A stretch of DNA of 16,241 nt from Synergistota bacterium (GTDB taxonomy: Bacteria > Synergistota > GBS-1), in NCBI GenBank assembly GCA_025060595.1, contig JANXBX010000018.1, forward strand, positions 1-16,241, read 5' to 3'. Under the pieces are notes generated by a model, which saw nothing but the letters and a program-made list of their open reading frames with translations, was not told the DNA's origin and made no database searches. A program made the translations under genes and the position numbers. Shown piece by piece: positions 10,765 through 13,026 of the stretch (within the stretch, counting starts at the first letter, position 1; the number at the start of each line of letters is the position of its first letter).

Positions 10765-11199
10765 ATGGAAAGCTCTAAGGAAATTTTAAAAAAGAAAGGA
10801 ATAAATCCTTCGTATCAGAGAATAAAAATTTTTGAGTATCTTCAGAATAACAAAAACCACCCAACTGTAGAAATGATATATAAGGATCTGGCGTCAAAGA
10901 TTCCCACACTATCTAAAACAACTATCTACAATACTTTAAAGCTATTTGCAGAAAAAGGGATAGTTAGTTTATTAATTATTGATCAAACAGAAATAAGAGT
11001 AGACCCCAACGTAGCTTTTCATACACACCTTTTCTGTATGAACTGCAACAAAATACATGATGTAATGCTTAGCAACACTCCTTTTGAGTCCATAAAAAGG
11101 GAATCCGAAGAAAAAGGATATAAAATAAGGGAAATACAAATAACTTTAAGAGGTACTTGTAAGGATTGCTTAGAAAAAAACATTTTAAAAAGTGATTAA
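10765..11199 (+). CDS. perR: Fur-family, PerR-type peroxide-sensing repressor
   Basis: A 144-residue Fur-family regulator: N-terminal winged helix (to about 75) and C-terminal dimerisation domain. Structural zinc cysteines are C91-x-x-C94 and C132-x-x-C135. The five regulatory-metal ligands of Bacillus subtilis PerR (His37, Asp85, His91, His93, Asp104) have counterparts at His32, Asp80, His86, His88 and Asp99 with a constant offset of five, and the Asp at position 85 is the residue that favours peroxide sensing over iron sensing. This supports PerR rather than Fur or Zur. SD AAAGGAAG (10747-10754) precedes the ATG. Its neighbour, an oxidised-guanine glycosylase, suits an oxidative stress role. 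Confidence 0.8.
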   Translation: MESSKEILKKKGINPSYQRIKIFEYLQNNKNHPTVEMIYKDLASKIPTLSKTTIYNTLKLFAEKGIVSLLIIDQTEIRVDPNVAFHTHLFCMNCNKIHDVMLSNTPFESIKRESEEKGYKIREIQITLRGTCKDCLEKNILKSD

Positions 11200-11204
11200 A
11201 CCTC

Positions 11205-11233
11205 TTGACTGTTTGAATTTATAGTGCTAAATT
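11205..11233 (+). promoter_or_regulatory. Promoter of the trp-leader/symporter transcription unit
   Basis: TTGACT at 11205-11210, a 17-base spacer and the extended -10 TGCTAAATT (11225-11233) start six bases after the perR stop. Predicted transcription start is about 11240, giving only a few bases before the leader-peptide SD. Confidence 0.75.
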
Positions 11234-11234
11234 C
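11215..11234 (+). promoter_or_regulatory. Candidate operator: 7-6-7 inverted repeat over the -10 box
   Basis: GAATTTA at 11215-11221 and its exact reverse complement TAAATTC at 11228-11234 flank a six-base spacer. The right half covers the -10 box, a position expected for a repressor. It does not match the PerR box (TTATAATNATTATAA) or the E. coli TrpR operator. The regulator is unknown, and in AT-rich DNA a 7-bp dyad can arise by chance. Confidence 0.35.
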
Positions 11235-11260
11235 TTCTTAGAAGAGAGGAGATGAGCAAG

Positions 11261-11335
11261 GTGGAGCAAAAGAGAATAAGAAGTAGATATAAGTGTAAAT
11301 TTTATGTAAATAAGTGGTGGTGGCAGGTGTTATAG
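11261..11335 (+). CDS. Tryptophan-rich leader peptide (trpL-like), 24 codons
   Basis: A short frame that begins with GTG at 11261 and stops with TAG at 11333-11335. It encodes VEQKRIRSRYKCKFYVNK followed by WWWQVL: three consecutive Trp codons (TGG at 11315-11323), preceded by Phe-Tyr. SD AGGAG (11247-11251) is 9 bases from the GTG; an in-frame ATG at 11252 is too close to that SD. Three Trp in tandem is very unlikely by chance, and it lies directly upstream of competing hairpins, with the Trp codons overlapping the first arm and the stop codon in the first loop. Ribosome stalling at these codons when charged tRNA-Trp is scarce would decide between antitermination and termination. The peptide itself probably has no function after translation. 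Confidence 0.85.
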   Translation: MEQKRIRSRYKCKFYVNKWWWQVL

Positions 11336-11347
11336 GCACCTGCCATC
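11319..11347 (+). promoter_or_regulatory. Attenuator hairpin 1:2 (protector)
   Basis: TGGCAGGTG (11321-11329) pairs perfectly with CACCTGCCA (11337-11345) around a 7-base loop, extended by a G-U and a G-C pair. The third Trp codon and the following codons form the left arm, and the leader stop codon lies in the loop. When it forms, arm 2 is unavailable and the terminator can fold. Confidence 0.8.
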
Positions 11348-11390
11348 CCATGGTTCGTAAAAAGAAGATTTTAAAACCATGGAGGCAGGT
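11338..11390 (+). promoter_or_regulatory. Attenuator hairpin 2:3 (antiterminator)
   Basis: ACCTGCC (11338-11344) pairs with GGCAGGT (11384-11390), and CCATGGTT (11348-11355) with AACCATGG (11375-11382), separated by a small internal loop. Inside, TAAAA (11358-11362) pairs with TTTTA (11369-11373). It uses the right arm of hairpin 1:2 and the left arm of the terminator, so it excludes both. It would form when a ribosome stalls on the Trp codons. Confidence 0.8.
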
Positions 11391-11422
11391 CCCAACTAAG
11401 GGATAGGCCTCCATAGTTTTTT
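11379..11422 (+). terminator. Attenuator hairpin 3:4 (intrinsic terminator)
   Basis: ATGGAGGC (11379-11386) pairs with GCCTCCAT (11407-11414). An inner helix TCCC (11390-11393) with GGGA (11400-11403) stacks across two possible sheared G-A pairs. Two bases later comes a run of six T (11417-11422), as expected for rho-independent termination. Its left arm overlaps the antiterminator. Confidence 0.85.
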
Positions 11423-11428
11423 CTAAAA

Positions 11429-11458
11429 GGGGGCCTTGAAGGTCCCCTAAATCTTTTT
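11429..11458 (+). terminator. Second hairpin before the RBS, possible weak terminator
   Basis: GGGGGCC (11429-11435) pairs with GGTCCCC (11441-11447) including one G-U, loop TTGAA, followed after a few bases by CTTTTT (11453-11458). The U-run is distant and interrupted, so it may be a back-up terminator or just a structured spacer next to the SD AAGGAGGTG (11459-11467). AGGTCCC at 11440-11446 repeats the same heptamer at 11387-11393, so an alternative long-range pairing is possible. Confidence 0.4.
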
Positions 11459-11473
11459 AAGGAGGTGTTTATC

Positions 11474-11566
11474 ATGAGTATAGGAGTAATAATGGGCTAT
11501 TTTTTATCAGTCGCTTTTTTAATTGGAGGAATCATCTATGCTTTAAAAGGAGGTAAAGAACTATGA
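11474..11566 (+). CDS. Small single-helix membrane protein, putative symporter accessory subunit
   Basis: A 30-residue frame reading MSIGVIMGYFLSVAFLIGG then IIYALKGGKEL: a single transmembrane helix (about residues 3-23) with a short basic tail. It has one of the best SD sequences in the window (AAGGAGGTG, 6 bases upstream of ATG) and its stop overlaps the symporter start as ATGA, so translation is coupled. Very small one-helix proteins encoded just before sodium symporters are known (for example MetS with NSS transporters, and the family named symporter small accessory protein for SSS transporters). I do not recognise an exact family; the accessory role is inferred from context and topology. 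Confidence 0.75.
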   Translation: MSIGVIMGYFLSVAFLIGGIIYALKGGKEL

Positions 11567-13008
11567 GTTACATTATCGCTTTAGTAGTTTACACACTGGC
11601 CATGTTAATAATAGGTTTTGTAAGTTACAGAAAGGAGGGAGAAAGAGGATACTTCCTAGCTGGAGGAAAGCTCGGCCCTTGGCTAGTTTCTCTATCTTTC
11701 TTTGCAACATATTTTAGTACTAGTGCTCTTCTTGGAGGAGGAGGCTCTGGCTATATATTCGGATTTGGATGGAGCGCTTACCTTACTATGTTTCACATCT
11801 TGTTTGCAGTACTGTCTTGGGTAATTGTAGCACCTAAGCTTAAAGAGTTTGTTGAAGAAAAAAATATATTAACTATACCCGAGTTCTTTCTTGTTAGATA
11901 CAACAGTAAAGCACTTCAAGTCATTTCCTCTTTAGTTGTACTTGTCTTCTTCTCTTTTTACATGATCTCTATTTATAAAGGATCTTCTAACCTACTTCAA
12001 GTTATGATGGGGGTCCCCTATGAGTATGGAATATTCTTAGTCGCCATACCTGTTATACTTTATACTTCTATAGGTGGCTTTAGAGCTGTTGTTTTAACAG
12101 ATTTCGTTCAAGGTATAATCCTCCTTTTCGGCGCCCTATCTCTATTTGGAGCGATAGTATACAAAATGGGCGGAATTACCGCTGGCCTAGAAGCATTATC
12201 TAAAATTACTCTGCCAGGAGGAATACCTGGAAAAGCTTTAATGAGTTTAGGAGAATATGGTCCTCCCCCAATAGTTAAGTCTGGTATGATGATTCCCTTT
12301 TTGTTAAGTTTGACATTCGCTATTAGTGTCGCTCAGCTTTCTAGCCCGCAACTTATAATAAGATTCTATGCTGCTAAAGATAAAGAGGTTATAAGAAAAG
12401 GAATGCTTTTAACACCTATACTTATAGGACTTTTTGCTGTTACAGTATTTTCCATAGGACCATTTGCGCATCTTTTTATCCAAGGAGTTAAAGATCCTGA
12501 CCTTGTAGTTCCTATGCTTACCAAGAAGCTTTTTTCGGAAGGATTTGCTTCTTTAGTATTAGTGGCCGCTTTAGCTGCTGCAATGTCTACTATAAACTCT
12601 AATTTAATGGTTTTAGCTAGCTCCTTAGTCAAAGACATCCTTGGCTCAAAAAATGTTAAACTCGCAAGAATATCTGTTGTTATTTTAGGACTCATTTCTC
12701 CCATTTTAGCTTTAAATCCTCCTGGAATAATTGTCACCATAATTGGCTCAGCCTTCTCAGTTATTACCTCTACCTTTCTTGTCCCCTTACTTGCTGGACT
12801 CTACTCAAGAAATCCATCTAAAACGGGGGCAATTCTTTCAATGTTGAGTGCAATAGTCACATGCATGATATGGGAGGCTTTCTTTTATAAAAAATTATTT
12901 ATCTATAGTGTGGTTCCGGGCCTTATCACTTCAACAATATTTTATTACCTAGGAGCTCTCGTTTCTTCTCCCGCAGAAAAAGAAGTTACGTCATCTACCT
13001 CATCATGA
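11563..13008 (+). CDS. Sodium:solute symporter (SSS family), tryptophan-attenuator controlled
   Basis: A 481-residue integral membrane transporter with about 12-13 hydrophobic helices, starting with SYIIALVVYTLAMLIIGFVSY. The SSS pattern is clear: R-G-Y-F-L-A-G-G-K-L-G-P, ATYFSTSALLGGGGSGYIFGFG near residues 47-68, Y-T-S-I-G-G-F-R-A-V-V-L-T-D-F-V-Q-G in the middle, and AAMSTINSNL where Ser342-Thr343 correspond to the Na2-site residues of PutP (Ser340/Thr341). Substrate cannot be deduced from the family, which includes proline, pantothenate, sugars and carboxylates. The upstream leader peptide with three Trp codons and attenuator strongly links expression to tryptophan availability, so tryptophan, another aromatic compound or a precursor is the favoured substrate. 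The last ten codons fall in a long hairpin. Confidence 0.9.
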   Translation: MSYIIALVVYTLAMLIIGFVSYRKEGERGYFLAGGKLGPWLVSLSFFATYFSTSALLGGGGSGYIFGFGWSAYLTMFHILFAVLSWVIVAPKLKEFVEEKNILTIPEFFLVRYNSKALQVISSLVVLVFFSFYMISIYKGSSNLLQVMMGVPYEYGIFLVAIPVILYTSIGGFRAVVLTDFVQGIILLFGALSLFGAIVYKMGGITAGLEALSKITLPGGIPGKALMSLGEYGPPPIVKSGMMIPFLLSLTFAISVAQLSSPQLIIRFYAAKDKEVIRKGMLLTPILIGLFAVTVFSIGPFAHLFIQGVKDPDLVVPMLTKKLFSEGFASLVLVAALAAAMSTINSNLMVLASSLVKDILGSKNVKLARISVVILGLISPILALNPPGIIVTIIGSAFSVITSTFLVPLLAGLYSRNPSKTGAILSMLSAIVTCMIWEAFFYKKLFIYSVVPGLITSTIFYYLGALVSSPAEKEVTSSTSS

Positions 13009-13026
13009 GGTAGATGACGTAACTTC
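12982..13026 (+). terminator. Exceptionally long perfect hairpin at the end of the symporter gene
   Basis: A 21-base left arm (12982-13002, beginning GAAGTTACGTCATC) is exactly complementary to the right arm (13006-13026, ending GACGTAACTTC), with only TCA between. The symporter stop TGA is the first codon of the right arm. No T-run follows at once, so it is not a textbook intrinsic terminator, but it separates the symporter from the rpsL promoter and could terminate transcription, block 3' exonucleases or insulate the two units. Confidence 0.6.

Follow-up and report, generated by a model that had tools for sequence, protein, structure and literature searches.

The window, the whole 16,241-nucleotide stretch of DNA analyzed here, is contig C18 of a 1.86-Mb genome (G000, 99% complete) and carries the housekeeping genes obg, nadD, rpsL, rpsG, and fusA. 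A transcription unit lies between rpsL and a Fur-family gene (10765-11199); in it, a promoter is followed by a short leader open reading frame (ORF), a series of hairpins (11319-11458), a small hydrophobic ORF, and a gene for a sodium:solute symporter of the SSS family (Table 1). Counterparts of the promoter occur in two relatives, G003 (TTGACT/TATATT) and G002 (TTGACA/TAGAAT), with a spacer of 17 nt in each, and hairpins comparable to the repeat at the end of the symporter gene are found at the same gene end in relatives (L038, L010).

Table 1. Features of the symporter transcription unit, with positions in the window.
Feature	Position	Strand	Basis
Sigma-70-type promoter, TTGACT - 17 nt - TAAATT	11205..11233	+	sequence
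Leader peptide ORF MSKVEQKRIRSRYKCKFYVNKWWWQVL, ending ...KWWWQVL	11252..11335	+	sequence; relatives' leaders
Three consecutive Trp codons (TGGTGGTGG), sensing site	11315..11323	+	sequence, conservation
1:2 (pause/protector) hairpin; leader stop codon in loop, 5' arm overlaps Trp codons	11319..11348	+	folding; conserved in 10 leaders
2:3 antiterminator: 11337-11355 pairs with 11374-11390 (CACCTGCC...CCATGG with CCATGGAGGCAGGT)	11337..11390	+	folding, -28.1 kcal/mol
3:4 intrinsic terminator with T-run (TTTTTT)	11377..11424	+	folding, -27.8 kcal/mol; covariance model R1 match, 94.9 bits
Second hairpin, then TAAATCTTTTT; probable back-up terminator	11425..11458	+	sequence
30-codon hydrophobic one-helix ORF, MSIGVIMGYFLSVAFLIGGIIYALKGGKEL*; probable small accessory subunit, translationally coupled to symporter	11474..11566	+	sequence, conservation, weak NF045580 match
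SSS-family sodium:solute symporter, 481 aa, predicted tryptophan importer	11563..13008	+	profile matches, predicted fold
Inverted repeat, 39 nt, spanning symporter's final codons and stop; probable operon terminator	12985..13023	+	sequence

A sequence-only reading of this DNA had described the main gene as an SSS symporter with an intact Na2-site Ser-Thr pair, and both parts of that description were borne out. The 481-aa protein matches PF00474 at 207.9 bits (cutoff, 22.8; E 3e-61) and exceeds the cutoff of the SSS superfamily model TIGR00813 (195 versus 184 bits), and its membership in the family is unremarkable. The best equivalog models were those of PanF (228.4 bits; cutoff, 328) and PutP (212 bits; cutoff, 515.5), neither of which reached its cutoff. 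An AlphaFold2 model (pLDDT 86, pTM 0.86) has the LeuT-type fold of SSS proteins, and its top Foldseek matches were all members of the family, with the structures of SiaT, vSGLT, and human SGLT closest (TM-scores of 0.77 to 0.84 to SiaT and SGLT2). The Ser-Thr pair is S342/T343, as placed by a phmmer alignment, and lines up with S364/S365 of vSGLT and S340/T341 of PutP. Because the pair is near-universal in the SSS proteins compared (among 27, T343 was invariant and S342 more than 90% conserved), it is a generic feature of the family and uninformative about substrate.

The small ORF overlaps the start of the symporter gene by 4 nt (ATGA), and its product shares 67% identity with its counterpart in G003 and 57% with that in G002. 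Judging from position, overlap, and conservation, we consider the 30-aa protein a probable subunit of the symporter. Very short one-helix proteins encoded just 5' of a sodium symporter include the small subunits MetS and YhdT, and the 33-aa protein of NF045580 (symporter small accessory protein) is likewise very short, consists of one helix, and is encoded directly 5' of its symporter, though the score of the window's ORF lies below the cutoff of that model. NF045580 was accordingly rejected as the family of the 30-aa ORF (16.5 bits; cutoff, 35); in the genome search it scored 16.3 bits in G002 and 14.9 bits in G000, again below 35. Several other SSS genes of G000, unlike the one in the window, have a longer small ORF in this position, presumably of the kind that accompanies PanF.

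Ahead of this gene pair, the same reading had placed an attenuator that responds to charged tRNA-Trp, and our analysis agrees that an attenuator is there: of sequences simulated at the same composition (first-order Markov simulation of region 11200-11473), 0.055% contained a short ORF with WWW, and the motif is present in three genera. The ATG at 11252 stands directly against its Shine-Dalgarno sequence (GAGGAG), and an in-frame GTG at 11261 is normally spaced; the GTG is the likelier start, giving a leader of 24 codons that fits the 24 to 25 codons of the relatives' leaders. A tandem-Trp ORF followed by mutually exclusive 1:2, 2:3, and 3:4 helices is, as read from the sequence, the layout of a classical ribosome-mediated trp attenuator. 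The energy of the 2:3 helix was computed after removing the footprint of a Trp-stalled ribosome, and the second hairpin is also present in G002, in G003, and in trpE leaders. If the switch operates as folded, a scarcity of Trp or of charged tRNA-Trp would stall the ribosome at the WWW codons, where it would cover segment 1, and segment 2 would then pair with segment 3 and permit read-through into the gene pair at 11474-13008; with ample Trp, the ribosome would proceed as far as the stop codon in the loop of the hairpin, and the 3:4 terminator would form and end transcription. Neither the window nor the trp locus had a match in Rfam. T-box control of the symporter was considered and rejected: the window has no Rfam match, and the two T-boxes in G000 lie ahead of carA and argG.

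Switches of this kind also precede the genes of tryptophan biosynthesis. The trpEGDCFBA operon of G000 is complete (L041:7117-13819) and has its own Trp leader, which reads MRNFYSCTVKKSKVNWWWQAF..., ...NWWWQAF..., with two stacked terminators and the same kind of hairpin, helices, and terminator as the symporter leader. A strict pattern search returned two sites in G000, one ahead of the symporter unit and one ahead of the trp operon, and in the other genomes all matches without the symporter precede trpE or trpD. A covariance model of the switch (R1), built from six leaders, matched 49 of the 185 genomes of the phylum; inspection of 40 further stretches showed that true switches nearly all precede trpE, trpD, trpC, or trpB and have leaders of the form xWWW(Q/R). 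Since the hairpins are symmetric, some leaders are also picked up by R1 in reverse orientation, and the matches L113, L116, L117, and L119, which are terminators without a leader, were excluded as switches. Across the 1:2 and 3:4 helices of 47 distinct leaders, 94% of pairs were formed and 22 of 28 showed changes on both sides (300 shuffled controls: mean 8.8, maximum 14), a figure somewhat overstated in that the model shaped the alignment, the shuffles take no account of relatedness, and as many as two rows may be reverse strand. Given that the same attenuator stands before trp genes, including the genome's own trpEGDCFBA, the SSS gene belongs to the tryptophan regulon. Elsewhere in the phylum, several genomes have a lone trpB with its own switch, the leader of which ends with WWW(W/R)P (L103, L105, L106, L108, L112, and L118). 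In G061 (L114), a switch precedes a TrpB-like gene and trpA was not detected; in G077, which also has a switch before trpC, a leader with two Trp codons (NLCWWRRL; L111:272-1012) is followed by a gene that matches an AMP-binding enzyme weakly and is truncated where the contig ends.

Orthologues of the symporter are confined, among the 185 genomes, to G003 (public record LEKQ01000001.1, bacterium GBS-1; 87% identity) and G002 (75 to 76%, the gene being split across two contig ends). A scan of 84,980 species returned GBS-1 as the sole close relative, and every other SSS protein listed had about 33% identity or less to the symporter over most of its length. The symporter is absent from G001, which is of the same genus and is 77% complete. 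In three genera of the family, leader, small ORF, and symporter stay together. The leaders of G002 and G003 end in NNWWWQVL* and form the same helices as in the window, with the remainder of the peptide diverged; only Trp codons are conserved, neither relative having Tyr or Phe codons where the window's leader has them. It had been proposed that the substrate hypothesis would fail if close homologues lacked the leader or were tied to other pathways, and the leader was found with three of three orthologues, that of the window included.

The attenuator and symporter are also present in G002 (96% complete, about 90 contigs), where trpA was not detected, nor were trpE, trpD, and trpB beyond one 29% stray match, in searches that gave full matches in G000 and G003. 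Because of that completeness and contig number, loss of the trp operon from G002 by an assembly gap is possible at the percent level. We propose that the pair at 11474-13008 is probably a tryptophan importer, with L-tryptophan the predicted substrate, inward the predicted direction, and Na+ the presumptive coupling ion. Tryptophan uptake was already the simplest hypothesis of the sequence-only reading, and it gains support from the switch held in common with the trp genes and from retention of the unit in G002 without detectable trpE, trpD, trpB, or trpA, transport being predicted.

A regulon in common with trpEGDCFBA in G000 and G003 would also suit a carrier of a precursor or cosubstrate of Trp synthesis (indole, anthranilate, shikimate, or serine), which would likewise be of use under Trp shortage. 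In G002, however, the unit is kept without the four detectable genes, and a precursor would be useless there because it could not be converted to tryptophan without TrpB and TrpA. Tryptophan itself is therefore favored over indole, anthranilate, and shikimate, the alternatives named earlier lose weight, and we give a precursor carrier only a slim chance. An importer with a wider range of aromatic or neutral amino acids, Trp being one among several substrates and expression being set by Trp supply, overlaps with a tryptophan importer and is compatible with it; multispecificity is common in carriers under the control of one amino acid, and the case has been made for LIVCS and NSS carriers with T-boxes (PMC2494555). 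Though the conservation of Trp codons alone in the leader, with the window's Tyr and Phe codons missing in G002 and G003, speaks against such breadth, we retain it tentatively as a real possibility.

Membership in a regulon can mislead about substrate, as with TrpP of Corynebacterium glutamicum, which adjoins the trp operon and was taken for a Trp transporter until it was excluded as one, though it is a three-helix SdpI-like protein outside the transporter families (PMC11995493). The attenuator before the symporter might similarly be a relic or an accident, a trp leader copied before an unrelated gene and irrelevant to its substrate, and its terminator (GGAGGCAGGTCCC...AGGGAT) is closer to those of trpE and trpD leaders from other families (G018 and G057) than to that of the G000 trpE leader, as expected of a copied element. 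The preservation of three helices through sequence changes in three genera and the retention of the switch where the trp operon was undetected both argue against a relic, which we consider very unlikely. We place least credence in a transporter of the PanF (pantothenate) or PutP (proline) type: these are the best equivalog models, but the scores are far under their cutoffs; I254 and Q258 of the window's protein stand, in an alignment read by eye, at the PutP substrate-site positions W244 and Y248; and the longer small ORF that we associate with PanF is absent here. The preferred reading, a tryptophan importer, draws its orthologue evidence from three genomes only. An NSS-family transporter gene is also present in G000 at C8:68365-69684 (L058 and L059; the match crosses one TAG), so the symporter need not be the sole import route in this genome.

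The switch precedes transporters of other families as well. In G016 (99% complete, one contig), the sole switch precedes an NSS-family transporter (L107:301-1867, leader MIVRSFQLNMSWWWRNF), and trp genes were not detected in the same searches as those run on G002. Within the NSS family, TnaT is known to carry tryptophan, and Trp T-boxes have been described for NSS genes (PMC2494555); the G016 protein probably represents a second family of tryptophan importers. In G057, whose trp operon has a separate switch of its own, a switch with the leader ...QRNWWWQAF... (L102:1784-3610, minus strand) stands before a 482-aa NhaC-like protein, a candidate aromatic amino acid carrier of a third family. With SSS, NSS, and NhaC-like proteins under the same switch in separate lineages, different transporters thus fill the same place in the regulon. 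In G184 and G180 (f7; L110:301-1755 and L115, minus strand), an attenuator leader rich in aromatic codons (FYYWQT) was seen before a membrane protein of roughly 390 aa, followed by a gene resembling an M20 peptidase; the L110 copy of the membrane protein had no match in Pfam or NCBIfam, and the protein is a candidate new family of aromatic amino acid carriers. On balance, we lean toward a combined account in which the window encodes a two-component SSS tryptophan transporter with a 30-aa microprotein subunit. This transporter would have joined an old trp attenuation regulon that spans the phylum, and transporters from at least three unrelated families (SSS, NSS, and NhaC-like) would have come under the switch in different lineages.

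Since their substrate site is poorly conserved, SSS proteins are hard to assign to substrates from sequence, and a conserved switch predicted to respond to tRNA-Trp charging provides an independent, directly testable substrate assignment for one of them. If the assignment is true, tryptophan would join the substrates of the family to which human SGLT and NIS belong. Going by the papers searched, it would be a new SSS substrate: tryptophan and aromatic substrates go unmentioned in a review of the prokaryotic SSS carriers (PMC7918813), and literature searches for an SSS carrier of either kind, whose coverage excluded most subscription papers, found none. The earlier list of known tryptophan carriers omitted TnaT (NSS) and the ABC system TrpXYZ, but, within the papers searched, its placing of all such carriers outside the SSS family held up. 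The phylum-wide trp attenuator, for which no Rfam match was found, could be used to name other carriers of tryptophan or aromatic amino acids, and the transporters that retain the switch in genomes where no trp operon was found suggest a route from biosynthesis to uptake.

Compared with known systems, the symporter resembles the PanF and PutP branches of the SSS family (PF00474; TC 2.A.21) in fold, Na2 Ser-Thr pair, and length, and differs in its identity of about 33% or less to proteins outside its own family and in scores short of the PanF and PutP cutoffs. The attenuator is of a known kind, for which we found no report from this phylum. As in the classical attenuators of Escherichia coli trpL and the trp leaders of Corynebacterium and Streptomyces, tandem Trp codons overlap segment 1, the stop codon lies between segments 1 and 2, and competing 2:3 and 3:4 helices are followed by a T-run, whereas the window's switch controls an SSS transporter and has a second hairpin on its 3' side (PMC1262725). 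Control of a carrier by tRNA-Trp charging, as predicted here, has precedents in NSS proteins of the TnaT type and in TrpXYZ with its T-box (PMC2494555, PMC9382623); those systems differ in belonging to other transporter families and in using a tRNA-binding T-box rather than a leader peptide.
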